From positions 1-33,393 of the IMG/VR virus record IMGVR_UViG_3300037227_000085: 33,393 nt of DNA; one strand, 5' to 3'. The stretch comes from a virus. Below the pieces are notes generated by a model. The model had not been told where the DNA came from and made no database searches. It saw only the letters and a list, made by a program, of their open reading frames with translations. The translations under genes were made by a program, and so were the position numbers. Each line of letters starts with the position of its first letter. The stretch's first letter is position 1. Below are positions 18,873 to 32,985 of this stretch, one piece after another.

Positions 18873-19187
18873 ATGTCGAAACTGTTTCAAGGCTTCTTCC
18901 ACATCAACATCGGGCATATTGCCATCGCCACCATCTTTGTATTCGGCGTGGGCAAGTCATGGTCCAAGTACGATGCAAAAATTGACACAGCCATCAACAC
19001 TGAGTTGACCCATTACACGGCGCTCAAGGAGACTGATCTGGCTGCCTCAACGCGCATCGAGAAGGCTGAGGCCCAGACAAAGGACATCGCCGCGCTGACC
19101 ACGGCGGTCGCGGTGCTTTCCACCGAGGTGAAGAATCTCAGTGAGGAAGTGAAACGCCTGCGCACGCATGGCGCAGCGGAGGACTGA
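18873..19187 (+). CDS. Small membrane protein with C-terminal coiled coil
   Basis: This 104-aa protein starts at ATG 18873. It has one transmembrane helix (about 13-28, GHIAIATIFVFGVGKSW) and then a heptad-rich helix (ASTRIEKAEAQTKDIAALTTAVAVLSTEVKNLSEEVKRLRTHG, about 57-99). It interrupts the tail-tip gene series. Holin-like and spanin-like roles are both conceivable, but there is no diagnostic motif. The 179-aa protein at 28113 has the inverse architecture (coiled coil then TM). Confidence 0.65.
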   Translation: MSKLFQGFFHINIGHIAIATIFVFGVGKSWSKYDAKIDTAINTELTHYTALKETDLAASTRIEKAEAQTKDIAALTTAVAVLSTEVKNLSEEVKRLRTHGAAED

Positions 19188-19192
19188 CTGCA

Positions 19193-19702
19193 ATGCCCAG
19201 CACTGCTCTTACTGCCGCGATCAAGGAGGCCTACGCTTCGGCGCCGTCCAATGTGGTGCCCTGGGAGACGCTCCAGATTTCGCACCCGCTGCTGCCCGAC
19301 GGGTCACTGTTCCTGATCAAGGACCAGCAGGACCGCACTCTGCGTCTGGAGGACAGCAGCTACCAGCTGTTCAAGGCGTGCAGTTTCAACCTGACGCTGC
19401 CTGCTGCGGGCAACAATGGGGTGCAATCCATGTCCATCAGCGTGGACAATGTGGATCGCCAGGCGTCCGACTTCTTTGAGACCGTCAAGGACTCCGACGT
19501 GCCAGTGCTGGCCACGTTCCGGCCCTACCTGAGCACGGATCCAAACACTCCGCAGATGAACCCGCCGCTGGTGCTCTGTCTGTCAGATGTGGAAGTGCAC
19601 CTTACCGATGTAAGCGCCAAGGCCAGTTTCGGCAACCTGCTCAATCGGCCGTACCCGAGCGAGCTCTACACCCGGAAGCGTTTTCCTTCCCTGGGTCAAT
19701 GA
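19193..19702 (+). CDS. Minor tail protein, DUF1833 / lambda gpL-like
   Basis: This 169-aa protein has the DUF1833-type pattern: an N-terminal helix ALTAAIKEAYASAP, strands WETLQISHPLL and FLIKDQQDRTLRLEDSSYQLFKACSFNLTLPA, then QSMSISVDNVDRQASDFFE and VPVLATFRPYLSTDPNTPQMNPPLVLCLSDVEV. It occupies the gpL slot before the NlpC/P60 tail peptidase. GGAGG at 19178-19182 lies 10 nt before the ATG. The C-terminus ends in PYPSELYTRKRFPSL, typical of the family. It overlaps the next gene by 4 nt. Confidence 0.82.
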   Translation: MPSTALTAAIKEAYASAPSNVVPWETLQISHPLLPDGSLFLIKDQQDRTLRLEDSSYQLFKACSFNLTLPAAGNNGVQSMSISVDNVDRQASDFFETVKDSDVPVLATFRPYLSTDPNTPQMNPPLVLCLSDVEVHLTDVSAKASFGNLLNRPYPSELYTRKRFPSLGQ

Positions 19703-20133
19703 GCGCTCCCCACCACTGGATAGCCAAGTACGTCGGGGCACCCTGGCAACTGGGCGGCCGGGGGCCGCGTGCCTTCGACTGCTGGGGCTTGCTTTGGTGG
19801 GTGTACCGCACAGAATGGGGCATTGAACTGCCAGAATACGCGCACGTGCTCACCTATGACGCCGGCATCGTTGCCCGCGTAATCGACCAGGCCGTGCGCC
19901 AGGGCGCCCAGTCGGGCGAATGGCGACCCCTGGCGACGCCTGTGGATGGGTGTGCCGTTGCCCTGAGCACGCGGGAAGTCTACCACCACGTAGGAATTTA
20001 CGGTGACGTGGACGGGGGCCTGGTCCTGCATGCAGCGGACTACAAGAATGCTGCTGCACAGTCGCTCCTGGCCCTACGCGGCCGGGGGTATCGCAAAATC
20101 AACTTTTTTCAACACCATGGCTCGCATCGTTGA
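19699..20133 (+). CDS. NlpC/P60 family tail-tip peptidase, lambda gpK-like
   Basis: This 144-aa cysteine peptidase domain has the catalytic Cys in FDCWGL (Cys28) and His in HHVGIY (His96/97), with His111 in LHAADY as the third polar residue. These enzymes cleave peptidoglycan peptide stems and sit at the tail tip, opening the wall locally during DNA entry. It is ATGA-coupled to the gpL-like gene and overlaps the TipJ-like gene by 17 nt. This is a virion-associated enzyme, not evidence of a lysis endolysin. Confidence 0.9.
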   Translation: MSAPHHWIAKYVGAPWQLGGRGPRAFDCWGLLWWVYRTEWGIELPEYAHVLTYDAGIVARVIDQAVRQGAQSGEWRPLATPVDGCAVALSTREVYHHVGIYGDVDGGLVLHAADYKNAAAQSLLALRGRGYRKINFFQHHGSHR

Positions 20134-23100
20134 GATCTCCAACCCGTTTGAGCCGTTCTCGGATACCAAGGTGTCCGAGCACCCAGGTGGCATCACCATC
20201 CGCGAGTGGCTGCGGTTTGAATACCCCGGATTTGTGGAGTTTGAGCGGCCCACCATCTGCCTGCTGAACGGAAATCCGCTCATGCGCATGAACTGGAGCA
20301 CTCATCGGCTACAGAGGACAGACATAGTCAATTTCGTCACGATACCCAACGCGCCGGGTCTGCTGTATTGGATCATCATGGCCGTGGTGGTCATCGCCAG
20401 CGTGGTCATCGCACTGTCGGTGCCCAAGCCCAAGATACCCGGCGAGCTGGGTGGCCCGGACCCGGTGTACGATCTGAAGGGGCAGCAGAATCAGATGAAG
20501 CTAGGGGCGCCCATTGAGGATCCATACGGACGCTGCCGTTTGTGGCCGTCGTATGCGGCACGGCCCTACGGGCGGTACATCGGCAACGAGCAGTACGCAT
20601 ACGAGCTGTTTTGTCTGGGCCAGGGGGAGTTCGACATTGAGGCCACGCAAATCGAGGACACCCCCATAAGCAGTTTCCCCGAGGTGACCGTGGAAATCTA
20701 CCCGCCAGGCACACCAGTCACCCTGTTCTCGGACAACGTGGTTACCAGCGTGGAGGTGGCCAATCTGGAGCTTCTGGGCACCAACGAGACTGGCTACGGC
20801 TGGCTGGGTGGGTACATAGTCAATCCGGCCGGCACGCTTACCACTCTGCTGGAGGTGGACGTGACCCTGCCCCAGGGGCTGTACTTCATCGATGGCAAGA
20901 ACAACATGATCCAGCTGTCCTGCAACGCGGTGTTTCAGTACCGCGCTGTGGACGACACCGGGGCGCCCATTGGCAGCTGGACGGAGCTGGCCTTCTTCGA
21001 CAAGACGCTGGCCACTCAGACGCCACAGCGGTTTACCCTGTCGATTACGGTGCCCAGTGGGCGCTACGAGGTGCGGGCACAGCGTGGCGACGCCAAGGAT
21101 CTGCGCAGCCAGGCGGCCAACGTCATTCGGTGGGAGGCGGCGCGGGCGTTCCTGCCCAGCACCAAGAACTACGGCAATGTGACCATCGCGGCCATGAAGG
21201 CCAAGGCCACCAACAATCTGAACAGCAACTCGCAGACTCGGTTCAACGTCATCGCCACGCGCAAGCTACCCATCTACAACGGCACGACCCACACCTGGAG
21301 CGTCCCGACGGCCACGCGCAATCCAGTCTGGGCGGACTGCAACATCTTCCGGGCGGTCTACGGCGGACAGCTGGCAGACCAGTACCTGGACCTGCCCACA
21401 CTGACGACGCTGGCTGCGGCCTACGACGCGGCGCACATCTACTTCGACTGGGTGTTCGACCAGCTCATCACCCTGTGGGATGGTGCTACCACGGCGCTGC
21501 GCGTGGGACGGGCCATTCCCATGCTGGACGGCAGCCGGATCACGGCCATTCGCACCATACTCAAGACCGTGCCGACGGCCGTGTTCAATCAGGAGAACAT
21601 GGTGGACGGTAGCTTCAAGTACCAGATCAAGACGGCGGCCGTGGGGGACAACGACGGGGTGGAGATTACCTACATCGACTCAGTGACTTTTGCACAGGAA
21701 ACCGTACTCTGTGTGCTGGACGGCGAGGCAGGGGACAACCCGGAGAAGATCACCCTGGCCGGCTGCACCGACCGCACCCGCGCCTGGCGCGAGGGCATGT
21801 ACATCCGCGCCTGCCGGCGCAAGCTGCGCGAGAACATCATCTTCAGCACGGGTCTGGAGGGGCACATTCCCACCTACGACGATCTGATTGCGGTCTCCCA
21901 CGACCTGCCGCGCTGGGGCCAGGGCGGTCTGCTGCTGGGCATTGACGGGTACACCTTGGCGTTGAGTGAGCCGGTGACGTTCACACCCGGAGTGACCAAC
22001 GTGATTGCCTTCCGCAAGAAGGACGGCAGCGTGCTGGGGCCTTACACGGTGGTGGCTGGTGACGACGCCACGCATGTGGTGGCTGGCACACTGATCGACG
22101 CCGGCAATTTCCATTTTGACCACGTCAACGAGCTACCCCTGTTCCTGTTCGGCCAGGCGGCCGCCTGGGGCAAGCTGTGCCGCGTGCAGGGCCTGGCACC
22201 AGCCGGTGATGACTCGGTGGAGGTAACCTGTGTAGGAGACAACCCGGCCGTGTTCGACAAGGACGCAGCCACTCCGCCAGAGGTGGTGGACAACGGAGGC
22301 ACGCCAGATCCACCGCCCAGCGTGCCCCTGCTTGATTGTTCCAGTGTGCAGATTCAGCGCGACCCGATCAATGCTGCCAAGTGGAACGTCAGCTGGCGCC
22401 CGACACTGGGGGCCACGTCCTACATCCTGTACGTGTCCTACGACGCCGGCGACAGTTGGTCCCTGCTGGCCAGCAATGTGCAGGCACCCTACTATCAGCT
22501 GACAGCCGCGTCCACGCCGTTCAGGGTGCGTGTAGCGGCCGTGGGTGCTGCCCTGGGTCCAGCGTGCGACAAGGACAGCGGTGACGTGCTGCCAGGCCCT
22601 GTGCCGCCACTGCCTCCGGGTGAGCCGTTAACGTACGGTGACATCATGCCTGGCTGGCTGCCCGGTGGTGCTCTCAGTGTTGAGTGCAAGACGCGTGGAG
22701 GTGGCTACGGAATCGTCGGTTTCGATCCCTACATCAGTTCCATTCCTGTCAGGAAGTTTTTGCGATGGAGGGTTTCCGCAGGCAATGTCTATGGTATCCA
22801 CCACGGCGAGGAACCCGGTGGAAAGGGGTTTACCTGTTACATTACGGAAATGTCGGAGCGCACTGTCGATCCCATTACTGGGTGGACGACCCCTCAACCC
22901 CTGATTAGTACCAAGAATTTCAATGGGGCAGTAAATCCCCCATGTACTGGTGGTGGGACTGGTGGGACTGGTTATCATTCCGAAAGGTTGGACATGCAGG
23001 CTCAACCGAACATGTCCGGAGTTTCTGTCACTAAGACCGCAACAGTTTGGTCCTTTACTTCCGAGGCTGGGGTTGCGGCTCTTTTCGGTGGGGCGTGCCC

Positions 23101-23536
23101 GATTGCCACTGTGTACTTGCCTTCCCCACCGGACCCCGGCAGTATCACCTACACCCTCGACAACGAGGACACCGATGAGGCTGCCAAGGCTCGCCTAGAT
23201 GCAACGCTGGCAGCGTGGGATGATATTGTTTATGGGACCTGCGTGGCCCAGACTGCGATTTGGACGCAGCGCACTACAGGACTCTATGCTTTCTACCGTG
23301 ACCTCAAGTGGCACGTCTTCGGCACAAGTTTCCTGCCCTTCTGGGATTATGAGCTTTCTGTTGTCTTCTCACGCCGGCCAGTCGACGAGAGTGGCATAGC
23401 GACTGGTGCCTGGGCAGAGTACCTCACAGACACCTATTCTCTGGCACCGGGCCTGGATGGCGGAGTGGATCTGGTCGTGGACGTGCCCAACGAGAGGGGC
23501 TGGGAAACGCGCGTGGAGCGAACGGAGTGGGTATGA
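20117..23536 (+). CDS. Tip attachment / host specificity protein (TipJ, lambda gpJ-like)
   Basis: Starting at ATG 20117 this is an 1139-aa protein. It has an N-terminal domain followed by a hydrophobic helix (about 81-101, GLLYWIIMAVVVIASVVIAL) of the kind seen in gpI/TipJ proteins. The conserved TipJ core follows: KGQQNQMKLGAPIEDPYGRCRLWPSYAARPY (about 122-152) and LFCLGQGEFDIEATQIEDTPIS (about 165-186). A fibronectin-III-like domain covers about 738-825 (WNVSWRPTLGATSYILYVSYD). The last 300 residues are encoded in DNA with visibly different codon use (many T-ending codons) and have no recognisable domain, probably the receptor-contacting end. An alternative start at 20003 would overlap the NlpC gene heavily and is rejected. 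Confidence 0.9.
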   Translation: MARIVEISNPFEPFSDTKVSEHPGGITIREWLRFEYPGFVEFERPTICLLNGNPLMRMNWSTHRLQRTDIVNFVTIPNAPGLLYWIIMAVVVIASVVIALSVPKPKIPGELGGPDPVYDLKGQQNQMKLGAPIEDPYGRCRLWPSYAARPYGRYIGNEQYAYELFCLGQGEFDIEATQIEDTPISSFPEVTVEIYPPGTPVTLFSDNVVTSVEVANLELLGTNETGYGWLGGYIVNPAGTLTTLLEVDVTLPQGLYFIDGKNNMIQLSCNAVFQYRAVDDTGAPIGSWTELAFFDKTLATQTPQRFTLSITVPSGRYEVRAQRGDAKDLRSQAANVIRWEAARAFLPSTKNYGNVTIAAMKAKATNNLNSNSQTRFNVIATRKLPIYNGTTHTWSVPTATRNPVWADCNIFRAVYGGQLADQYLDLPTLTTLAAAYDAAHIYFDWVFDQLITLWDGATTALRVGRAIPMLDGSRITAIRTILKTVPTAVFNQENMVDGSFKYQIKTAAVGDNDGVEITYIDSVTFAQETVLCVLDGEAGDNPEKITLAGCTDRTRAWREGMYIRACRRKLRENIIFSTGLEGHIPTYDDLIAVSHDLPRWGQGGLLLGIDGYTLALSEPVTFTPGVTNVIAFRKKDGSVLGPYTVVAGDDATHVVAGTLIDAGNFHFDHVNELPLFLFGQAAAWGKLCRVQGLAPAGDDSVEVTCVGDNPAVFDKDAATPPEVVDNGGTPDPPPSVPLLDCSSVQIQRDPINAAKWNVSWRPTLGATSYILYVSYDAGDSWSLLASNVQAPYYQLTAASTPFRVRVAAVGAALGPACDKDSGDVLPGPVPPLPPGEPLTYGDIMPGWLPGGALSVECKTRGGGYGIVGFDPYISSIPVRKFLRWRVSAGNVYGIHHGEEPGGKGFTCYITEMSERTVDPITGWTTPQPLISTKNFNGAVNPPCTGGGTGGTGYHSERLDMQAQPNMSGVSVTKTATVWSFTSEAGVAALFGGACPIATVYLPSPPDPGSITYTLDNEDTDEAAKARLDATLAAWDDIVYGTCVAQTAIWTQRTTGLYAFYRDLKWHVFGTSFLPFWDYELSVVFSRRPVDESGIATGAWAEYLTDTYSLAPGLDGGVDLVVDVPNERGWETRVERTEWV

Positions 23537-23766
23537 TTCTGAAGAACAAGCACACCACCGTTCTCCGGCCAGACATGGTCGGTCCCAGACATCCGGAAGC
23601 TACCTTCGGCTTGGGTGACGTTGTGGAGGTGCTGGCCAAGCCGGTGGCGATCGTTTCTGATGCCGTCCTCAAGACCAATTGGAAGAACTGCGTCGGCTGC
23701 GGCGAACGCAAAGCGGCGCTCAATCAGGCCGTGCCTGACGTCAACCCTATCCACCTACTGCGATGA
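23533..23766 (+). CDS. Small phage protein with C-x-x-C-x-x-R-x-x-A-L-N motif
   Basis: This 77-aa protein begins at ATG 23533 (ATGA overlap with TipJ) and ends with an ATGA overlap with the fibre gene. The segment NCVGCGERKAALN (about 52-64) is a CxxC motif followed by RKxxLN, seen in small phage proteins near tail or lysis genes; two cysteines could bind a metal as a dimer. Its function is unknown. Tight coupling on both sides suggests that it is needed with the tail-tip proteins. Confidence 0.7.
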   Translation: MILKNKHTTVLRPDMVGPRHPEATFGLGDVVEVLAKPVAIVSDAVLKTNWKNCVGCGERKAALNQAVPDVNPIHLLR

Positions 23767-25529
23767 CTCGTACACCAGCAAACACCATCGTACCCATCAC
23801 CGGCACTGAGAAGCAGCGCCAGGCCCTTCAGGCTCTGGGTGCAGACGATCCAATCCTGGCCAATGAGCTGCACACCACCAAGGATCAGACGCGCCTGTTC
23901 CTGAAGCATCTGCTGGTCAGTGGCAGCAAGTTCCTGGGCACCGTGGCTGACGCTGCGCATCGCTACAGTTTCAACGCAGACTTCCCACACGTAGGCTGCT
24001 GGCCCGGCGACGTGATCAAACAGACTGATCCCGCTGGTGCGTTCATGTGCATCAGCGAGCATGGTGGCAGCGACAGCGACTGGATCGCTTTCGGTGGTGA
24101 CAGTGGCGGTGGTGGGGGTGCTGGTGACAACGGCTGGACGCCTGAGTTGGCGATTGTCACCGATGACGAGCGGCGCGTGTTGCAACTGGTCGGCTGGACC
24201 GGCGGTGGTGGCACCGCGCCTACTGCGCCGCTCTACGTCGGGGCGACCGGCTTTACTACTGTACTTGCTGATGCGGTCGATATTCGCGGTGCTGCGGGTG
24301 CAGATGGTGGCGGTGGCGGTGGTGGCGGTGGTGGCGGCGGCGGTGGGGGTGACTTGGTGCTCATCGCGGGCAGCACTATCGTGAGCGATCAAGTATCGAT
24401 TGACATCACGAGCATTCCTGCAACTTTCCAGCATCTGAAGCTCGTTGTCAGTGTGCGGGCATCGTCGAGCGGAGGTCCGGCTCTAGTTGCCGTTGTGAAT
24501 GGAGACACCACGGCAGCCAATTACATTGGCACACTCTTGTGGTCACTTCACTCTCAGGTGAATGCCGGTGCGGCAGCTAACCTGGCCTACGGCGCGAGCA
24601 TCGTGGGTTCAGCTTCAGCGGCAGGCGCTTTCACGGGGATGGAGTTCACCTTCTTCGACTATGCGAGCACGGACAAGTTGAAACTCGTGAAGGGCCTCGG
24701 TGGGTACGTCTCTACTTCAGGGGATCAATACTCCTATGACATTACGACAAATTGGACTTCTATGGCCGCGATTAACCGGCTCACACTTTCTTCCACTGTG
24801 GGCAACTTTGTAGCTGGTTCAACATGGGCGCTTTATGGTCTTCGAGTTGCCGGGGCCGGCGAAGGCTTGAAGATCGGGCAGACTGATGACTACCCCACGG
24901 CGTTCGACGGGCTTGACACGTTCAATGGTGCATCGGTCACCCCGTTCGTGGATGTGGTTGCCTTCTCCTCCAAGAGCGTGGTCAACAGCCGCATCCTGAA
25001 ACTTGTTTCAATGGGTGCTGGACTGGACCAGCGAGTGCGGGTCACCCTAGCCACTCCCAAAGCGGGTGCGTTTAATGTTCGATTGGCTTTTGCGGCATTC
25101 TGCTCCCACTGGGCCTCTGATGAAGACTATTGGTGGGAAGTGCGACTGTCCGCTGCCGATGATACCCAACTTGCCCTCTTTCGGCTTTACGGCAGATTCA
25201 GTACCACTAATTTTACCTGCATGCGTCTCTGTTCAAAGTTTGGCACAGGCGCGCCTCCCAGTGCAGGTGCAGAGTACGACACTCTGGTCACGGTAGGTTT
25301 GCCGGTCACGCTGCAAATTCTCCGGGATGGAAGCAACAACCTAACAGCTAACTTTGGGTTGGGCAATCTACCCCTTGCTCTTGTCCCGTTCAATGACGGC
25401 GGCCTCCAGCCGAAGAGTCAGAGTGTTTCGGGCACCCTAGCACGGGTGGAGATCGCAGCGCACACTTATTCAGCAGGTGGCTCAACTGCTCAAATATCCT
25501 TCTTCCTCGACTACCTGCTGTCACTCTGA
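23763..25529 (+). CDS. Tail fibre / receptor-binding protein
   Basis: This 588-aa modular protein starts with a helical tail-attachment region. It contains the fibre module GWTPELAIVTDDERRVLQLVGWTGG and VGATGFTTVLADAVDIRGAAG (about 121-181), a common phage fibre linker. It then has 15 consecutive glycines (about 182-196). Two strand-rich domains follow (about 197-365 and 375-588), which look like jelly-roll or carbohydrate-binding folds and contain the phrase VNGDTTAANYIGTLLWS typical of fibre tips. The C-terminal domains are coded by T-richer DNA than the structural genes, a sign of module exchange. It follows TipJ, as expected for the host-range determinant. Confidence 0.82.
   Translation: MTRTPANTIVPITGTEKQRQALQALGADDPILANELHTTKDQTRLFLKHLLVSGSKFLGTVADAAHRYSFNADFPHVGCWPGDVIKQTDPAGAFMCISEHGGSDSDWIAFGGDSGGGGGAGDNGWTPELAIVTDDERRVLQLVGWTGGGGTAPTAPLYVGATGFTTVLADAVDIRGAAGADGGGGGGGGGGGGGGGDLVLIAGSTIVSDQVSIDITSIPATFQHLKLVVSVRASSSGGPALVAVVNGDTTAANYIGTLLWSLHSQVNAGAAANLAYGASIVGSASAAGAFTGMEFTFFDYASTDKLKLVKGLGGYVSTSGDQYSYDITTNWTSMAAINRLTLSSTVGNFVAGSTWALYGLRVAGAGEGLKIGQTDDYPTAFDGLDTFNGASVTPFVDVVAFSSKSVVNSRILKLVSMGAGLDQRVRVTLATPKAGAFNVRLAFAAFCSHWASDEDYWWEVRLSAADDTQLALFRLYGRFSTTNFTCMRLCSKFGTGAPPSAGAEYDTLVTVGLPVTLQILRDGSNNLTANFGLGNLPLALVPFNDGGLQPKSQSVSGTLARVEIAAHTYSAGGSTAQISFFLDYLLSL
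24306..24350 (+). repeat. Poly-glycine codon tract (15 Gly)
   Basis: Fifteen consecutive GGN codons, mainly alternating GGT and GGC, separate the attachment part of the fibre from its tip. GGTGGC units are prone to slippage in steps of three, which would change hinge length without breaking the frame. Confidence 0.9.
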
Positions 25530-25546
25530 ACCAACCCCCACACCCA

Positions 25547-25804
25547 ATGAAACACGAAACGTCCCAGCCTCACCTGATACCAGAGTCCCTTGATCGAGAG
25601 CGTGCCCTGCTTGCGCAGTGCTTTGAACGGTTGAGCGACCTGGAAAAGAAGCTCGCCCCGGTCATGAGGGCACCAGTAAAGCCCATGGCCAACATCTCCT
25701 GTCCGGAGTCAGCCAACGTGCTGGAGATCATCGAAACGTACAACCGCGAAATCGAGGCACTCTTCGGAAGGATTGACTACATCCGAGAGAGTGTCCAACT
25801 GTAA
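25547..25804 (+). CDS. Small coiled-coil hypothetical protein
   Basis: This 85-aa protein is mostly helical, with heptad-like stretches RERALLAQCFERLSDLEKKLAPVM (about 19-42) and NVLEIIETYNREIEALFGRIDYIRESV (about 58-83). The leader CCAACCCCCACACCCA has no Shine-Dalgarno. It lies between the fibre and a membrane protein, so it could be a fibre chaperone or part of a lysis set. No family recognised. Confidence 0.6.
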   Translation: MKHETSQPHLIPESLDRERALLAQCFERLSDLEKKLAPVMRAPVKPMANISCPESANVLEIIETYNREIEALFGRIDYIRESVQL

Positions 25805-25810
25805 CCTGCG

Positions 25811-26152
25811 ATGAACACCTTTACCAGTTTGATAATCCACTACGTCTACGGCCTGTTTGCCCAGTCGTGGAACGGTGCCATCGCTACTATCGTCGTCCTG
25901 GTCAAGGACACCACCGAGAACAAGGCGGGCGCCCTGGCCTGGTCGAACATCTGGCACGCATTCCTGATCGGGCTGGCGGTCAACGCCATCCTCTACCTAT
26001 ACGCCAACAAGCTGCCGCCCGCGCTTCCGCCAGGCATCGCTGACACACCGATGGCTCGGCTGCGGCAGGCTGCCAACCCAGGGGCCACCTTAATCCAATC
26101 ACGCGCCACTGACGACGCCACCCTTGCTCCCGCTGGAATGCACGCCCCATGA
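25811..26152 (+). CDS. Small membrane protein, holin-like
   Basis: This 113-aa protein has an amphipathic N-terminus with hydrophobic stretches (FTSLIIHYVYGLFAQSW and GAIATIVVLV) and one clear transmembrane helix at about 50-66 (HAFLIGLAVNAILYLYANKLPP), followed by a polar, probably disordered tail. Size, topology and place after the tail genes fit a holin-type or lysis-related membrane protein. There is no sequence motif that proves it. The stop overlaps the downstream lipoprotein start by 4 nt. Confidence 0.6.
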   Translation: MNTFTSLIIHYVYGLFAQSWNGAIATIVVLVKDTTENKAGALAWSNIWHAFLIGLAVNAILYLYANKLPPALPPGIADTPMARLRQAANPGATLIQSRATDDATLAPAGMHAP

Positions 26153-26793
26153 AATCGCTCGCTGTTTGTCTGCTCTTGCTCGCTGCACTGCTAGGCGGGT
26201 GCACAACTCCCACCCAGACCACACCCGACGTCAACTACTGGTCCTACAGCGGAGATGCCAACGGTTCGCTGTTCCTGACCAACCCGGACAATCCGGCCGG
26301 AGTGCAGCTGCGCCAGGGGCCGCTGCCCGTGTTCGTGATCCCGGGCATCACGATCATCCTGCCGGATGCGTCCGGCTACAACGACGTGCTCAAGTTCAGC
26401 CACGTGGTGAACATGCTGGTGGACGGACCGACCACGGTATATACTGGTGGCAATCAGAAGGAGAATGCCATCGACATGAACAATCTGTGTTCCAACATTA
26501 CCTTCCGTGCGGTGACACTGCAAGAGGGCAAGGAAAACGCCTGGACAATCAAGGGTGGCTGCACGGGCATCCACGCGGACACAGTCACGCTCACCGGCCC
26601 GTTCTCGGGCGAATGCGATATGGAGCTGGGTGGCGTTTCTGCCCAGGCCCCTACTCAGCGCACCACAGGGGTATCCATGGGCAGTCTGGATCGCACGGAC
26701 GGCCAGCCGGTGCGCGTGCGCGTGTGGTCGTCCAAGGCTGATTCTCCTTTAGTTAACACCGGCAACGTGGTAATCACTACCATTCACCTGTAG
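26149..26793 (+). CDS. Phage-encoded lipoprotein with beta-solenoid-like body
   Basis: This 214-aa protein begins with a lipoprotein signal: a basic start, a hydrophobic core (LAVCLLLLAALL) and the lipobox LGGC, with Cys at about residue 18. The mature part is strand-rich with short repeated turns (NNLCSNITFRAVTLQEG, IKGGCTGIHADTVTLTGPFSG), reminiscent of a right-handed beta-helix. It would be anchored in the host envelope or carried by particles. It is ATGA-coupled to the membrane protein upstream. Superinfection exclusion or surface modification is possible; no family recognised. Confidence 0.65.
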   Translation: MKSLAVCLLLLAALLGGCTTPTQTTPDVNYWSYSGDANGSLFLTNPDNPAGVQLRQGPLPVFVIPGITIILPDASGYNDVLKFSHVVNMLVDGPTTVYTGGNQKENAIDMNNLCSNITFRAVTLQEGKENAWTIKGGCTGIHADTVTLTGPFSGECDMELGGVSAQAPTQRTTGVSMGSLDRTDGQPVRVRVWSSKADSPLVNTGNVVITTIHL

Positions 26794-26816
26794 CTCAACT
26801 CAGTCACCAACCCAAC

Positions 26817-27194
26817 ATGAAAAACATAATCCGAATCCTTGCCCTCGGCGCGCTCTTGTGCGCAGCGGTGGGCCTGCCCTCAGCCTGTGCCTCCACGGCC
26901 GTGACCGTGGTGGGCAAAACCATCACCATTGCCTACGTGGCCAACGGCAGCCAGCCGTTCACTCAGCAGTGGCAGAAAGACGGCGTCGCTATCCCAGGTG
27001 CTACCGCGCCTACCTACGTGATCCAGGCGGCCAAGCTGACCGACGCTGGCGTGTACACCGTGGTAGTATCCAATGCGGCCGGATCCACCACGTCGGACAA
27101 CGCCACCATCTCGTTCCTGGTCGCCCCTTCGGGCGCGGTTACGGGGGTGCAGGTCACGCTCAAGGGAGTGACAACCTTTTACCCCGTGGGTTAG
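26817..27194 (+). CDS. Secreted single Ig-like domain protein
   Basis: This 125-aa protein has a signal peptide (MKNIIRILALGALLCAAVGL, with likely cleavage near SACAS at about 23-27). One immunoglobulin-like domain follows, with the diagnostic FTQQWQKDGVAIPGATAPTYVI, then LTDAGVYTVVVSNAAGS (about 46-92). This exact Ig pattern is widespread in Verrucomicrobia exported proteins, so it may have been acquired from the host. A short C-terminal strand region follows. The leader is CCAACCCAAC. The role may be surface binding or blocking; this is inference. Confidence 0.7.
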   Translation: MKNIIRILALGALLCAAVGLPSACASTAVTVVGKTITIAYVANGSQPFTQQWQKDGVAIPGATAPTYVIQAAKLTDAGVYTVVVSNAAGSTTSDNATISFLVAPSGAVTGVQVTLKGVTTFYPVG

Positions 27195-27253
27195 GTACAC
27201 AGCCACGCCCCCAATTTCCGTCAGAGTATAAACGCCAGTAAACAGAAAGTGTC

Positions 27254-27736
27254 ATGAAACCCAACCGCAATATCAGCCTCCTCGTCACGGTTGCCCTGCT
27301 CAGCATCACGCTGGCCGGGTGTCCGAAGACTCCCACCCTTGAAGCGGGTGGCCCCTACAGCAGCGTGGCCAACTATGAGATGGATCGCTCCATTCTGGAC
27401 GGTGTGAAGGTCTTGAACGACTTCACTGCCTGGACGGACGCCAACTCTGCCTACCTGACCGCCAACGCGCCCCAGGTAATGACCCTGGCCGTGCAGATCA
27501 AGGCGAACAAAGACATGTGGGAGACCCAGGCGCTCAACGCCCGGTCTGCCTATGCCTCGTCGGTCAAGGCGTACAACGACGCCGTGGCCGCTGCCAAGGC
27601 CAACAACACACCGCTGCCGGACGGATCTGTAGTCGCCACAGCGCACGACAAACTGCTCGGCGCCATGGCGGTGATTCAGAACCTGCTGCCGGTCATCGCA
27701 CAGTTCCGCAGTACGGTGGTCATCAAGACATCGTAG
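27254..27736 (+). CDS. Helical lipoprotein of unknown function
   Basis: This 160-aa protein has a lipoprotein signal peptide ending in the lipobox LAGC (Cys at about 23). The mature protein is helical (MDRSILDGVKVLNDFTAW, MTLAVQIKANKDMW and LNARSAYASSVKAYNDAVAAAKANN). It is too long for a classical Rz1-type outer spanin and lacks its Pro-rich form. It is one of three exported proteins in a row, which suggests a common envelope-related job. Confidence 0.65.
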   Translation: MKPNRNISLLVTVALLSITLAGCPKTPTLEAGGPYSSVANYEMDRSILDGVKVLNDFTAWTDANSAYLTANAPQVMTLAVQIKANKDMWETQALNARSAYASSVKAYNDAVAAAKANNTPLPDGSVVATAHDKLLGAMAVIQNLLPVIAQFRSTVVIKTS

Positions 27737-27779
27737 CTCCCCCGACCGCAACCACAACTCACAGTAGCCACTCATTAAT

Positions 27780-28052
27780 ATGACAGCCAATAAAGCCCAA
27801 CTCGATGCCGGCGCCGATGATGCCATGACGGTTATCAACGTCATCGGCCAGCTGGTCAACGCACTCGTCCCCGGTGAGGCGCAGGTCGTCGCAATTGCGA
27901 CGGGCGCCGCGTCTCTGATCCGCAACACGCTCGTTCCGATGTTTGAGCACCTGACGGAGGAGCAGATCACCCTCGCCGAGCAAGTTGCCACCAAGGCCGA
28001 AGTCGACGCCGAGCGCCTGCGCCTCGGCATGAAGCCCGACCCGATCAACTAG
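27780..28052 (+). CDS. Small helical hypothetical protein
   Basis: This 90-aa protein has a moderately hydrophobic central region (VINVIGQLVNALV and VVAIATGAASLIRNTLV) flanked by charged helices. It could be membrane-associated or simply a packed helical hairpin. The leader CAACTCACAGTAGCC has no Shine-Dalgarno. It is followed by a stem-loop and the tail-anchored protein gene. No family recognised. Confidence 0.55.
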   Translation: MTANKAQLDAGADDAMTVINVIGQLVNALVPGEAQVVAIATGAASLIRNTLVPMFEHLTEEQITLAEQVATKAEVDAERLRLGMKPDPIN

Positions 28053-28054
28053 GT

Positions 28055-28103
28055 GTAGTCATCCAGTTCCCGGTGCCCAGCGGCCGGGGACTGCATTGAC
28101 TAC
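28055..28103. promoter_or_regulatory. Two-tier stem-loop in the leader of the last plus-strand gene
   Basis: The outer arms GTAGTCA (28055-28061) and TGACTAC (28097-28103) enclose the inner arms AGTTCCCGG (28065-28073) and CCGGGGACT (28084-28092), which pair with one G-T wobble. It lies between a stop codon and the ATG at 28113 and lacks a T-tract, so it may control translation or mRNA stability more than termination. Confidence 0.45.
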
Positions 28104-28112
28104 TCCTCTTCC

Positions 28113-28652
28113 ATGAAAAACTCCCGACGTTGGACCATAGAGACGCTGCACGAGCATTTTGATGAGACCATGGTGCTGCGAGATCGGCTCAACGATGAGC
28201 GTGCCGTCTCGCAGGAGAAGGCCGTCATTGCTGCACTGGCCTCGGCAAAAGAGGCAGTGAACAAGGCGGAGGCTGCGGCGGAGAAACGATTCGAGAGCGT
28301 CAACGAGCTGCGCGGCATGGCTACGGACATCCTGGCCAGGACGGTAACCCGCGATGTGTTTGAGGCAGCAATCAAGGCAATCGACGCCAAGATCGTGTCT
28401 GCCGTGGACACGTGGGACAAGCGCCACCTAGAGAGCGTGGACCGTGTGGTCTCTCTGGAGAAGCGCCAGGCTGTTGCCATCGGCGAAAAGACTGGTGCCA
28501 AGGACACCGTGGACAACAGCCGGGCCAACATCGCGCTGATCATTACGGCGATTCTGTTCGCGGTCAACTTTCTACAGTTCATGTGGAACTTCTTCCCGCA
28601 CACGCCCATCGTGCAAGAAGTAATCCCAGCGGTTAAGACCATTACCCCTTGA
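28113..28652 (+). CDS. Coiled-coil protein with C-terminal membrane anchor
   Basis: This 179-aa protein is a long charged helix (about 1-135, with stretches like AKEAVNKAEAAAEKRFESVNELRG and KRHLESVDRVVSLEKRQ) followed by one transmembrane helix (about 139-158, NIALIITAILFAVNFLQFMW) and a short Pro-rich tail. The layout suits a tail-anchored membrane protein, possibly a lysis regulator or inner-membrane component, but there is no family motif. It is the last plus-strand gene and overlaps the oppositely oriented gene at its 3' end by 11 nt. The leader GACTACTCCTCTTCC has no Shine-Dalgarno. Confidence 0.65.
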   Translation: MKNSRRWTIETLHEHFDETMVLRDRLNDERAVSQEKAVIAALASAKEAVNKAEAAAEKRFESVNELRGMATDILARTVTRDVFEAAIKAIDAKIVSAVDTWDKRHLESVDRVVSLEKRQAVAIGEKTGAKDTVDNSRANIALIITAILFAVNFLQFMWNFFPHTPIVQEVIPAVKTITP

Positions 28653-29034
28653 CTGGGGTGTGGTAGGCGCCCTCGCCATCCGCCGCGCCGAAATGGCGCC
28701 TGGGGTGCCGGCTCTCCTCGAACTCCAGGAGGGCCTCGTTGGCTAGGTCCACCAGGTGCTCCAGGTTGCCCGTCTCGGCGTAGAAGGAGGCCCGCCGGCG
28801 GATGGAAGCCACCCGGTCATACTGACGTTTGCCAGGAGCGTGGAGGAGGCCGTAGCGCAAAGCGCCCATGATTAAGCGATTGCGCATCAGGAGCTCGAAC
28901 CGAGGGCTCCATTCGCTCCTCTCCAGGGCTTCCAGGCGTGTTTGGGGGTCGCCGAAGGGGGGTGGTGGCAACGCCAGGCCCGCCTGGGCCTCCAGACGGG
29001 CAGATAGGACGTGGTGGACGTACTGGTACCTCAC
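28642..29034 (-). CDS. Conserved phage hypothetical protein
   Basis: This 130-aa protein starts at GTG 29034, overlapping the HD gene stop (GTGA). It carries a pattern I associate with a recurring uncharacterised phage protein: FELLMRNRLIMGALRYG (about 47-63), YDRVASIRRRASFYAETGNLEHLVDLANEALLEFEESRHPRRHF (about 72-115). The conserved Asp/Asn/Glu in a helical setting recalls all-alpha nucleotide-pool enzymes (MazG-like), but this is only a resemblance. It is the last gene of the putative nucleotide/DNA-modification operon. Confidence 0.72.
   Translation of the reverse strand: MRYQYVHHVLSARLEAQAGLALPPPPFGDPQTRLEALERSEWSPRFELLMRNRLIMGALRYGLLHAPGKRQYDRVASIRRRASFYAETGNLEHLVDLANEALLEFEESRHPRRHFGAADGEGAYHTPVKG
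28644..28659. terminator. Short stem at the convergent gene junction
   Basis: ACCCC (28644-28648) pairs with GGGGT (28655-28659) around TTGACT, exactly where the plus and minus operons collide and their stop codons overlap. A bidirectional terminator is expected here, but the stem is short and has no T-run. Confidence 0.3.
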
Positions 29035-29612
29035 GTGGTGGGCGCCCAGGCGTCGGCCAGGAGGTGGGCGCGGTTAACTTCCTGCTGGAAAAGGGCAGCG
29101 GGGATGGTCCTGTCGTTCTCTGGATCAATGGTCGGGGAACCGAATTTCTTCAGGGCATAGTCCAGGGCCTGGACCCAACGGCCGGTGACAAACCCGTTGC
29201 CGGCGACCTCCGTCTTGCGGCACCAGATGAGGCCCTCCAGTGTGTCACACACCTTGAGGACGGCCTCGTCGTGGGGATCCAAGGAGACGGCACCCATAAC
29301 CAGGAAATCGTGAATGTGGATCTCGAGTTCGCGGAACCGGCGCTTGACCTCAGGATGGTCACGCTTGACGGTGAAGGGCACGTCGCCGATGAAGATCTCG
29401 GCGGCATCGTGCATGATGGCCTGCTGAAGCAAGGCGGCGCTGGGAGCGCCCCCGGTGATGTAGACGGCCAGGACGGCAACGCCCCAGCTGTGGAGGCCGA
29501 CGGTCTGGGGAGCCACGGACGGTGCCGCGTGGTAGCGAGCGACCCGGCCGGACTCGAGCGTGTTGGCGGCGCGCTGGTGAGTAGCGATGGCAATTGCAGG
29601 GGGAGGAGTCAT
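29031..29612 (-). CDS. HD-domain phosphohydrolase, YfbR-like 5'-deoxynucleotidase
   Basis: This 193-aa protein has the HD metal ligands in order: VGLHSWG (His41), MHDAAE (His68, Asp69) and VCDTLEG (Asp123). The phrase GRVARYHAAPSVAPQTVGLHSWGVAVLA fits the YfbR/HDDC2 group of dNMP 5'-nucleotidases. Phages use relatives to deplete a canonical nucleotide when DNA carries a modified base (DatZ in Z-genome phages is an HD enzyme). Its place next to a thymidylate-synthase-like gene supports nucleotide-pool editing. The substrate is not readable from sequence. The leader is C-rich without a Shine-Dalgarno. Confidence 0.82.
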   Translation of the reverse strand: MTPPPAIAIATHQRAANTLESGRVARYHAAPSVAPQTVGLHSWGVAVLAVYITGGAPSAALLQQAIMHDAAEIFIGDVPFTVKRDHPEVKRRFRELEIHIHDFLVMGAVSLDPHDEAVLKVCDTLEGLIWCRKTEVAGNGFVTGRWVQALDYALKKFGSPTIDPENDRTIPAALFQQEVNRAHLLADAWAPTT

Positions 29613-29645
29613 GGGTGGTGGGAGATGGGTTAAGGGAAGAGAAGG

Positions 29646-30671
29646 TCAGCGCGCAGAGGCAGGGGTCACGGCGTGGCGATTCAGCCAGCCCTGGACGGCC
29701 AGGCGCCAGTCGTCAGCCTGAATATCCGACGCCCACTCGTCAGCTTTGAATTGATCGCCGAGCTTGCGCATGTGCCAGGACATGAACACGGGCATGGCCA
29801 CGCTGTGGATGAACAGCGACTGGCACGTCTTGCGGAAGGCCAGCAGCGGCGCATAGTCCTGGTGGCGCACAGCGTAGACGCACGCAGTGATGAAGAGGGC
29901 GAGGTCGGAGTCGAACCGGGCACGCTGCCCTGGTTCAGCAAACAGCGGCGGGCAGCCCTGCACTGCGGGGGTGCCGTAGTGGTCAGTCATGCGCGCGGCG
30001 CACACGGCAGCCCACTGAGGGTTGTCCGTGTAGACATGGAGGTTATTAGCCACGTGTGTCCATGGGCCCAGTTCCTTCCCCAGGGCGCAGGCCACGTACT
30101 CCTGGAAGAAGGACATATGAACCACATTCGCGCCGCTGAGGATGCCCCAGATGGCATCGTTCGAGCGGTTGAAGCTCGTCATGCACAACCGACCATCCAC
30201 CAGCTCAAACAGCAACATTAGGTTGCAGGCCTTGTCCTTGGTGGATCGGATAAGATCACGTGGGTCCCACAGGCATGCCACGGCCTGGCGGCTGTCAGGC
30301 TTGGCGGCGAGCTCCTCGATGACAGTTTCCAACTGGTCACCCCACTGCTCGCGAAGCCGGGTGCCATAGAAAGCATTGTAGCGCTCCCCGTCGTCGGAGT
30401 AGTTGCGCATGTTGGCGGCGAAGTAGCTCAGGAACTCCACACTGTTGTAGGCGGCCAACATCGCCATGGCCTCCATCAGGTGGAAGAACGGGTTGGCGTC
30501 CCGGGCAGGACAGAAGTTCACCCGTTCGCGCGGGCGCTGAGCCACCAGGGTGGTGCAGCCGGGGAGCCGCAGGACTGGTCCGTTGCGGCTGGTCGTGGGG
30601 ACACCACGCCGAAGGAGGTCCGCGTAGACCTGGAGGGCGAGGCGATTGTGGTTGCGGTCGGTGTATTCCAT
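29646..30671 (-). CDS. Thymidylate-synthase-like enzyme, putative dUMP/dCMP hydroxymethylase
   Basis: From ATG 30671 this is a 341-aa ThyA-fold protein. The catalytic Cys lies in KDKACN (Cys149), with NRSND (Arg169, Ser170, Asp172), LHVY (His212, Tyr214), WDPRDL (135-140) and a helix containing Glu67 (HLMEAMAM), all matching ThyA landmarks. Where ThyA has the dUMP-contacting Asn in LPFN, this protein reads ILSGAN, so that position is Gly or shifted. Altered residues at this site occur in deoxynucleotide hydroxymethylases (T4 dCMP hydroxymethylase has Asp). It therefore probably methylates or hydroxymethylates dUMP or dCMP using folate. An ATG at 30716 would overlap the upstream gene by 44 nt and is less likely. 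It extends about 75 residues past classic ThyA. Confidence 0.82.
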   Translation of the reverse strand: MEYTDRNHNRLALQVYADLLRRGVPTTSRNGPVLRLPGCTTLVAQRPRERVNFCPARDANPFFHLMEAMAMLAAYNSVEFLSYFAANMRNYSDDGERYNAFYGTRLREQWGDQLETVIEELAAKPDSRQAVACLWDPRDLIRSTKDKACNLMLLFELVDGRLCMTSFNRSNDAIWGILSGANVVHMSFFQEYVACALGKELGPWTHVANNLHVYTDNPQWAAVCAARMTDHYGTPAVQGCPPLFAEPGQRARFDSDLALFITACVYAVRHQDYAPLLAFRKTCQSLFIHSVAMPVFMSWHMRKLGDQFKADEWASDIQADDWRLAVQGWLNRHAVTPASAR

Positions 30672-30672
30672 G

Positions 30673-31566
30673 TTATGGGTATGTGTGTAGACGGGCAGTC
30701 TCTCCGTGCAGGACACGCTCGTGCTTGTCCCACTCGCAGAAGCAGTTGGCCAGGTTGTTGGGATCGTAGAATGTGGTGTTGAAGAAGTTCTCGTCTGAGA
30801 GTGTCCGGCGGATCTCGAGCAGACGTGCGACGTAGGTTTGCTGCGTCCGGCTGAAGTTCAGTGGTCCCTCGGGGCCAAAGCCGGCGTAGCGGTCCAGACC
30901 GCGCCGGGTGCCCGGGCCGCAGAGGACGAACGTGCCCTTGTCGGGCATCGCGGCGCCCCAGGGTGTGTGGCGCAGGTCGGCGCAGACCTGGTTGGCGAGG
31001 AAGTCGCCAATGCCCATGATCTGCACCAGCCGCGTGGCCACCTCGGCCAGCGACCGCATGTCGCGCCACGTGACCGTCTGTGCCTCCTCGACGGCGGCCA
31101 TGTAGTATTGGTCCACGGTGCGCCCGCGGCCGTTGTTGCCGTGCACGGGCATCATGTAGGCGCCGCGCATGGTTTTTCCGCCGGCTGCGCGCAGGGCGTC
31201 CAGCTTGCGCAGGGCCACGGCGGGGATGATCACCGGCAGGATCACCGCCAGCGTCGGCGGGTGGTTCCAGATGCGCGTGGCCAGGAGCTGCACGACGAGC
31301 TGCTCCGGCCCCTGCTCGAGGAAAACCAGCTTGTCACGCACGTTGGCCTTCACCCACCGCGTGACGGCGTCGTCCTCGCGGTTGATGTTGCAGAAGCGAT
31401 TGACGGCGATGATGGGGTCGTTGCTGTGGGGCGGCGGCCCACCGACGAGCTCCTTGACCAGGCGCGCTTGCTCGCGGGCCTCGACAAACAGGCGGAAGCG
31501 CGTAGGCGCCCCCCGCATGCGACGGTCGGCCTTCCACAGTTCATCGGACTGAAGTATGTGTTTCAC
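30673..31566 (-). CDS. DNA base hypermodification protein (5-hmdU DNA kinase helical-domain / aGPT-type family)
   Basis: This 297-aa protein starts at GTG 31566 (GTGA overlap with the HAD gene). It matches, by pattern, the helical family found in phage thymine-hypermodification clusters: IIAVNRFCNINREDDAVTRW (52-71), GKTMRGAYM (130-138), MGIGDFLANQVCADLRHTP (184-202), CGPGTRRGLDRYAGF (216-230) and NLANCFCEWDKHER (271-284). Proteins of this group act on 5-hydroxymethyl-dU in DNA, as kinase-linked helical domains or as transfer enzymes that replace the activated hydroxyl. I see no P-loop kinase motif in it. The exact reaction is unresolved; the family-level call is good. Confidence 0.75.
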   Translation of the reverse strand: MKHILQSDELWKADRRMRGAPTRFRLFVEAREQARLVKELVGGPPPHSNDPIIAVNRFCNINREDDAVTRWVKANVRDKLVFLEQGPEQLVVQLLATRIWNHPPTLAVILPVIIPAVALRKLDALRAAGGKTMRGAYMMPVHGNNGRGRTVDQYYMAAVEEAQTVTWRDMRSLAEVATRLVQIMGIGDFLANQVCADLRHTPWGAAMPDKGTFVLCGPGTRRGLDRYAGFGPEGPLNFSRTQQTYVARLLEIRRTLSDENFFNTTFYDPNNLANCFCEWDKHERVLHGETARLHTYP

Positions 31567-32054
31567 AGGAGAGGGGAGTAGAAGAGCTCGGGCGTGGCGG
31601 GGCTGTCCTTGTCCCAGAAGAATAGCGTGGCCTCCGGCAGCAGGGCTGCCATGGCCTTCAAGACGGCGCGGTTGTCCTCGACGAATGCGTCGATCTCGCA
31701 GTCACGCAGCACACCAACCTTGAACGCGGCTACGTTGCGGATGGTGCGCCCGGTGCTGAGCAGGTACAGGGGTACATCGCCCAGGTCGTTGCCCTCGAGC
31801 CAGGCCAAGGTGCACGCGCTCACGTCCGGCGTGGCCTTGCGGGCAGAGAGGATGATCGTGGGGCGCACGTCCGGCTGGCCCAGGGCCTCGGCGCCGGCGT
31901 ACCACGCCAGGGTGGCGCTCCGGGCGGCCTGGCGCTCCGGGCCGTTCATGCGCATCCAGGGGATGTCGTACGGCGGGGGCTTGACGGCGAGGACGCCGTC
32001 CAGGTCAAAGCCCCAGCGTGTGTATTGCAGCGTAGCCAAAGAGATCGGTTTCAT
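31563..32054 (-). CDS. HAD-superfamily phosphatase/hydrolase
   Basis: From ATG 32054 this is a 163-aa compact HAD protein with all four motifs: FDLDGVL (Asp17, Asp19), IILSAR (Ser70), FKVGV (Lys112) and FVEDNRAVL (Glu126, Asp127). The small cap and size suit a nucleotidase or small-molecule phosphatase. It sits between the glycosyltransferase-like and base-modification genes, so it may dephosphorylate a nucleotide or a modification intermediate. A longer in-frame start at 32150 would overlap the upstream gene by 146 nt; the chosen start still overlaps by 50 nt. Confidence 0.78.
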   Translation of the reverse strand: MKPISLATLQYTRWGFDLDGVLAVKPPPYDIPWMRMNGPERQAARSATLAWYAGAEALGQPDVRPTIILSARKATPDVSACTLAWLEGNDLGDVPLYLLSTGRTIRNVAAFKVGVLRDCEIDAFVEDNRAVLKAMAALLPEATLFFWDKDSPATPELFYSPLL

Positions 32055-32985
32055 CGGAGGAGACGGCATTGCGCTGGTCGCGCACGATGGAGCGGCGGAA
32101 GCCCTCGTCCAGGAGGGCGGAGGCAAGGTGGCCAAGGGTGGAGCAGTCACTCACCTGCATGCCCCACCAGAGGGCGGGATTGCCAGGGAAGGTGAGCACG
32201 GGGACGCCCGCGGCCAGGGCGTGGTAGGCGCGGCCGGTGCGCCAGCCCAGCACGGCGTGCGTCCGGTCGAACGCGCACACGACGCCCAGGTAGCGGCGAT
32301 AGGCCGCGCGGCGTTCCGCCTGCTGGGGCGAGGCCACCACGGGTACGTGGTACGCAGCCCACTCGGCAGCGCTGCCCATGATCTCCACCACGCCGGAGGC
32401 CACCATCTCGGCGCACTGGACCTTGCGACCCCCTGGGCGGCCGGGGTAGACGAGGCGCTCGGCGCCAGCCGCAGCGCTCTCGTTGTACTCGTCCTGGGGC
32501 AGCCCCACGCCGGGGTTGAACTCGCGGTAGGCAGCCTCCTCGGGCGCGCCCAGCACCTCCGGGGCCAGGCCGGGGCTTTGGCAGTTGAGCAGGAACGTCC
32601 AGCGCGACCAGTCATCCTGGGGCACGTAGCGGCACACGCTGGGCTTGAGCAGGTCGGGGTCGTCACACAGGTAGGCCACGGGGACACCCGGATGCTCCGC
32701 GAGGAGCTCCTGCGTGCGGGTGTAGTCCTCGGCGTACCAGGAGCCGTTGCTCGGGCCGAACTCGAGCACGATCAGGTCGGGGTGCTCGGGCTGCGCGTAC
32801 CAGTAGTCCTCGGGCGGGGCAGCCACGGTCGCCTTGGTGAGGCGCGTCGCGATGCACATCTGGTGACTTCGGCCGTGGAGCCAGCGCAGCACGTTCCGGC
32901 GCTTTTCTACCCAGGCGCCACGCGTCCCGGACTCGTGGTCCGTGAGGCCGATGGCGCCGCTGATGCGGTGGTAGAGTATTCTCAT
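32005..32985 (-). CDS. Putative GT-B fold glycosyltransferase
   Basis: This 326-aa protein looks like a two-domain GT-B enzyme: an N-terminal Rossmann-like half (DLIVLEFGPSNGSWYAEDY, VPVAYLCDDPDLL) and a C-terminal half with RLVYPGRPGGRK (about 187-198), VVEIMGSAAEWAAY and the donor-site-like TGRAYHALAAGVPVLTFPGN (about 247-266), where His/Ala-Gly-Val-Pro resembles the sugar-nucleotide motif of glycosyltransferases. In this operon DNA base glycosylation is attractive, but a receptor or capsid sugar is also possible. An SD-like GGAGAGGAG precedes the ATG, and it is ATGA-coupled to the upstream small gene. Confidence 0.55.
   Translation of the reverse strand: MRILYHRISGAIGLTDHESGTRGAWVEKRRNVLRWLHGRSHQMCIATRLTKATVAAPPEDYWYAQPEHPDLIVLEFGPSNGSWYAEDYTRTQELLAEHPGVPVAYLCDDPDLLKPSVCRYVPQDDWSRWTFLLNCQSPGLAPEVLGAPEEAAYREFNPGVGLPQDEYNESAAAGAERLVYPGRPGGRKVQCAEMVASGVVEIMGSAAEWAAYHVPVVASPQQAERRAAYRRYLGVVCAFDRTHAVLGWRTGRAYHALAAGVPVLTFPGNPALWWGMQVSDCSTLGHLASALLDEGFRRSIVRDQRNAVSSDETDLFGYAAIHTLGL

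Follow-up and report, generated by a model that had tools for sequence, protein, structure and literature searches.

A conserved cassette of predicted exported proteins, shared by metagenomic phages, points to a function at the host envelope

What might a phage gain from encoding three exported proteins in a row downstream of its tail genes? We analyzed this question in a window of 33,393 nt (the whole stretch of DNA examined, positions 1 to 33,393 of virus record IMGVR_UViG_3300037227_000085). An earlier note had proposed two lipoproteins and an immunoglobulin (Ig)-domain protein within positions 26149-27736, and all three open reading frames, LipoA, Ig and LipoB, are present there (Table 1). 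The TGA of the gene before LipoA overlaps the LipoA ATG, and the cassette lies on the same strand as the tail tip gene J, separated from it by a fibre gene and at least two small genes. A promoter scan found no promoter-like excess; terminator-like sites numbered 7 against 4.0 ± 1.9 expected and were not used as evidence.

Table 1. Tail tip gene and cassette genes in the window.
Feature	Position	Strand	Remarks
Tail tip protein J	20003..23536	+	phrog_469 E 1.6e-149, phrog_31 E 8e-88; cassette downstream
One-TM, holin-like membrane protein, 113 aa	25811..26152	+	First conserved gene of the cassette
LipoA, 214-aa lipoprotein, predicted short right-handed parallel beta-helix	26149..26793	+	Lipobox LLGGC
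Exported single-Ig protein, 125 aa	26817..27194	+	Signal peptide ending PSACA, followed by ST; Pfam Ig_2/I-set
LipoB, 160-aa lipoprotein, predicted three-helix bundle	27254..27736	+	Lipobox TLAGC
Conserved 90-aa protein of moderate hydrophobicity, next after LipoB	27780..28052	+	
Coiled-coil protein with C-terminal TM, 179 aa	28113..28652	+	Ends the rightward gene run

Export was called by rules combined with conservation. LipoA begins with MKSLAVCLLLLAALLGGC followed by TTP (lipobox cysteine C18), LipoB with MKPNRNISLLVTVALLSITLAGC followed by PKT (lipobox cysteine C23), and the Ig protein with the signal peptide MKNIIRILALGALLCAAVGLPSACA followed by ST. Both lipoproteins and their homologues combine an N-terminal basic residue, a hydrophobic stretch and a lipobox cysteine within residues 15-35. 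When all six-frame ORFs were screened with a PROSITE-style lipobox rule, the window gave three matches, two of which are LipoA and LipoB, versus a mean of 2.1 in shuffled windows, so a single match is weak evidence on its own; a stricter rule misses LipoA, which has Gly at -2. Signal peptide and lipobox recur, however, in homologues only 53-70% (LipoA) and 37-67% (LipoB) identical, and PSACAST is invariant in the Ig signal peptide of three phages. Because they are conserved in such diverged homologues, these export signals are not due to chance, and the earlier assignment of two lipoproteins and a signal-peptide Ig protein, whose domain passes the Pfam cut-offs, holds. We infer that LipoA and LipoB are lipidated and membrane-located, and the conserved cysteine makes it possible that the Ig protein is a non-canonical lipoprotein.

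The same note had placed membrane proteins on both sides of the trio, which proved right in part. The coiled-coil protein has a clear transmembrane segment near its C-terminus (residues 140-158, hydropathy 2.14), the protein encoded just before LipoA has a single borderline one (residues 47-65, mean hydropathy 1.70), and the 90-aa protein has no clear one (mean hydropathy 1.44). PHROG and Pfam searches assigned neither the one-TM nor the 90-aa protein to a family, and a search for sequence homologues of the coiled-coil protein in the other phages found none.

One 47.7 kb contig (G001) is 100% identical to window positions 20149-32790. More informative are two further viral contigs, G002 (24.3 kb) and G003 (38.9 kb), that both encode LipoA (53-70% identity), Ig (54-55%) and LipoB (67% in G002, 37% in G003). 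The one-TM protein is found in the same place in both (44% in G002, 60% in G003), as is a homologue of the 90-aa protein (71% and 38%). Gene order is kept, except that Ig precedes LipoA in G003. Searching 37 window proteins against the two contigs by tblastn, we recovered the one-TM protein, LipoA, Ig, LipoB and the 90-aa protein from G002 and all of these but LipoB from G003, where LipoB emerged from a separate genome search (E 8.4e-20, 41% identity). These five adjacent genes are the only whole-gene matches. Terminase, portal, capsid and tape measure had no tblastn match in G002 or G003, and J had one weak partial match in G003 (E 1.5e-5, 29% over 124 residues). By family, the window has portal phrog_145 and capsid phrog_247 and G002 has portal phrog_113 and capsid phrog_1005; both large terminases weakly match phrog_2, and the five G003 proteins scanned matched no family. 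We therefore call the phages unrelated in the sense of no detectable virion-gene similarity at tblastn sensitivity, which is not proof of separate ancestry.

Since only cassette genes match over their whole length in these phages, the cassette appears to move as a unit between otherwise unrelated phages, each time beside fibre-like genes. What is new here is that phages otherwise unrelated in their virion genes share one cassette. The proteins are under purifying selection, with dN/dS against G002 of about 0.15 for LipoA, 0.23 for Ig and 0.33 for LipoB at dS near saturation. A fourth contig (L018, 9.8 kb) encodes an exported Ig protein (48% identical) after a tail-protein-like gene; the genes behind it specify a 117-aa lipoprotein of another kind and small hydrophobic proteins.

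The regions around the cassettes of G002 and G003 hold further exported-looking proteins. Two long proteins in fibre position have signal-peptide-like N-termini, which is odd for phage fibres: L003:2415-4724 (MKTVFKLILMAAVLIIAVVIFS), with no tail-fibre PHROG match, and L004:250-3456 (MKKLLFGLLLCVAARLAAVS), with one at E 5e-7. Directly upstream of the cassette lie extra small signal-peptide-like proteins (L003:4737-5216, L003:5213-5611 and L004:4225-4650) that have no significant Pfam or PHROG family. A DUF1617-like reading of an exported G002 protein gained no support from Pfam.

Export signals, together with exchange between phages unrelated in their virions, point to a partner in the host envelope. 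A host-envelope function is well supported, and the cassette probably alters either the infected cell's surface or its lysis. The least probable reading is that these proteins are tail-associated virion components with unused signal sequences: a tail fibre gene adjoins and phage structural proteins often carry Ig domains, but the lipoboxes and signal peptides are conserved, and the block is common to phages with different virion genes. We favor, at a probability of roughly 0.4, a transferable host-envelope cassette whose effect is superinfection exclusion or surface shielding. Its proteins would be made late, along with the tail genes; LipoA and LipoB, neither of which has Asp at +2, would by the E. 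coli rule go to the outer membrane; and the folds of the beta-helix and Ig domains, which would suit surface binding, might let them attach to or mask a conserved part of the envelope in hosts of one shared kind. By analogy with the small exclusion lipoproteins that other siphophages encode past the tail tip gene, the likeliest effect, tentatively and slightly ahead of lysis, is that the infected cell and its debris cease to adsorb phage. The earlier suggestion that the proteins block superinfection or alter the host surface is possible, and agrees with the position of their genes behind gpJ and the fibre genes.

The exclusion and lysis systems used here as yardsticks are those of coliphages. 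Like Llp (T5), Cor (T1, phi80) and Rtp45 (Rtp), LipoA and LipoB are putative phage lipoproteins encoded downstream of tail tip or receptor-binding genes. Unlike these small single proteins, they have mature lengths of 197 and 138 aa, other predicted folds and an accompanying Ig protein; no sequence similarity was found, with Llp and Rtp45 set apart by description and Cor through PHROG. Known exclusion lipoproteins are small (Rtp45 is about 6 kDa) and tailored to the receptor of the phage that encodes them, whereas the cassette persists as a block across phages with different tail genes, which argues against exclusion. In favor of exclusion is the location of the cassette downstream of J and fibre, though not immediately after J; siphophage exclusion lipoproteins are encoded directly downstream of gpJ (PMC9586334, PMC12685063). 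Comparison of LipoA and LipoB with PHROG (including Cor), Pfam and PADLOC gave no significant match to any superinfection exclusion family, and the sole Cor-family match was weak (E 0.03), to the signal-peptide half of another phage's lipoprotein.

Exchange that is independent of virion type would suit lysis genes, and we regard a lysis module as a doubtful but serious alternative. In such a module the one-TM protein, the 90-aa protein or both would be the holin, and the lipoproteins would act like spanins at the outer membrane, at the end of the late run. The cassette does lie at the end of the structural genes, with membrane proteins around the lipoproteins, as Rz/Rz1 and T1 gp11 spanins pair an outer-membrane lipoprotein with membrane proteins made beside it. 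The G000/G001 proteins scanned (a set that left out some small ORFs, from contigs of which G001 may be incomplete) included no recognisable endolysin or spanin, and the NlpC/P60 protein at 19699-20133 occupies a tail-protein position. A Septimatrevirus relative carries lipoprotein, holin, lysozyme, Rz and Rz1 genes upstream of terminase, where the window has nothing comparable. However, no enzyme was recognised in the cassette, and spanin membership, which is defined by topology (PMC6139136), fails on that ground. In both LipoA and LipoB the signal peptide is the most hydrophobic segment and a C-terminal TM is lacking, unlike in a unimolecular spanin; nor does an i-spanin with N-terminal TM and coiled coil adjoin them, the TM of the coiled-coil protein being C-terminal. 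Their folded domains are also larger than those of spanins. The sole N-TM/coiled-coil protein noticed is a small protein among the tail genes (18873-19187), which has a weak holin match (phrog_1296, E 0.0011).

An AlphaFold2 model of LipoA built from three sequences (pLDDT 75) is almost all beta and predicts a short right-handed parallel beta-helix. Beta-helix proteins gave its best VIA matches, namely the tailspikes CBA120 TSP3 (Z 10.5, rmsd 4.0, 142 aligned) and Fri1 gp49 (Z 10.1), with the P. merdae protein 4mxn at Z 9.7; the best viral model match was an uncharacterised Caudovirales protein (E 0.0098, prob 1.00). Tailspike depolymerases, polysaccharide lyases and polygalacturonases are among its closest structural counterparts, and acidic residues are invariant among LipoA homologues. 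These features would fit a surface-anchored, depolymerase-like LipoA that strips host polysaccharide with help from the Ig protein. We nonetheless consider this improbable, as the resemblance is one of fold (about 10% identity; the best Foldseek match in the PDB, at E 0.27, is not significant), the domain is short and non-enzymatic beta-helices are common. By sequence, a resemblance of LipoA to ribosomal L34 (E about 0.5) was taken as noise.

LipoB is predicted to be a three-helix bundle (AlphaFold2 block pLDDT 89-97 over residues 41-150). Against PDB structures it matched helical bundles without specificity (Z up to 8.8), and its sequence gave one PDB match, at E 0.46. Neither lipoprotein has recognised relatives in isolated phages, Pfam or PHROGs; they represent two such protein families that can be expressed directly. 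In tblastn against isolated phages, LipoA, LipoB, the 90-aa protein, the coiled-coil protein and two L018 cassette proteins had no match, and LipoA and LipoB sub-alignment searches added no viral contigs. The cassette had no match in PADLOC. A search for homologues of LipoA, LipoB and the one-TM protein in 388 sampled Verrucomicrobiota genomes, a set without a positive-control genome, found none; a single weak Verrucomicrobiota match to the one-TM protein had no other cassette gene nearby and was judged to be chance.

The Ig domain is similar to repeats found in large proteins, most of them from Verrucomicrobiota. It matches Pfam Ig_2 (E 1.5e-7, 32.0 bits, cut-off 27) and I-set (E 4.7e-6, 27.0 bits, cut-off 23.7), as well as PDB profiles. 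Its description as Verrucomicrobia-type agrees with the listed set of 80 cellular Ig loci, 58 of which carry Verrucomicrobiota titles, although Bipolaricaulota, Verrucomicrobiota and Acidobacteria share the top scores (49-51% over one domain). The Ig domains of Verrucomicrobiota multi-Ig proteins are thus similar (up to about 50% identical), but at the eight cellular loci inspected closely the matched proteins are multi-domain, multi-Ig proteins of 651-4018 aa, unlike the single-domain cassette protein. The cassette domain is also 41-46% identical to that of Guernseyvirinae Hoc-like or neck-whisker Ig proteins, and two phage structural-type domains compared are somewhat more distant (47-49 bits versus about 71). 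Unlike the VSe103 Ig protein, whose gene adjoins that of the capsid and whose annotation is neck whiskers protein, the cassette protein has a signal peptide and sits among lipoproteins. A host origin for the domain is plausible; with the best match at about 50% over one domain, any capture would be old.

Shine-Dalgarno motifs precede 5 of 28 genes (window positions 3111-28113; background 0.11). The other three phage loci use them at 0-10% of genes; the corresponding fraction is 0.11 for Verrucomicrobiota loci and 0.02 for Bacteroidota, against 0.41 for two gammaproteobacterial phage relatives, suggesting a Verrucomicrobiota or Bacteroidota host rather than a gammaproteobacterial one. Because the Ig relatives are tied across phyla and this usage is only suggestive, we treat a Verrucomicrobiota host as a lead, not a result. 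We think it rather unlikely, though less so than a depolymerase, that this is a mobile envelope-conversion cassette of a Shine-Dalgarno-poor, probably Verrucomicrobiota host, with three proteins that jointly block adsorption in general and not through one receptor. More broadly, the apparent movement of such a conserved export cassette among phages that are otherwise unrelated suggests that its target lies in the envelope of a little-studied group of hosts.

Two other features of these genomes were noted. Adjoining minus-strand genes at 29034-31566 form a probable hypermodified-thymine DNA island; they encode an HD nucleotidase (YfbR-like), a protein resembling thymidylate synthase (phrog_5131, E 1e-79) and the helical domain of a 5-hmdU DNA kinase (PF18723, E 9e-26). 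On another locus, the minus strand at L011:9609-10115 encodes a Cys-rich protein consisting mostly of CxxCxx repeats.
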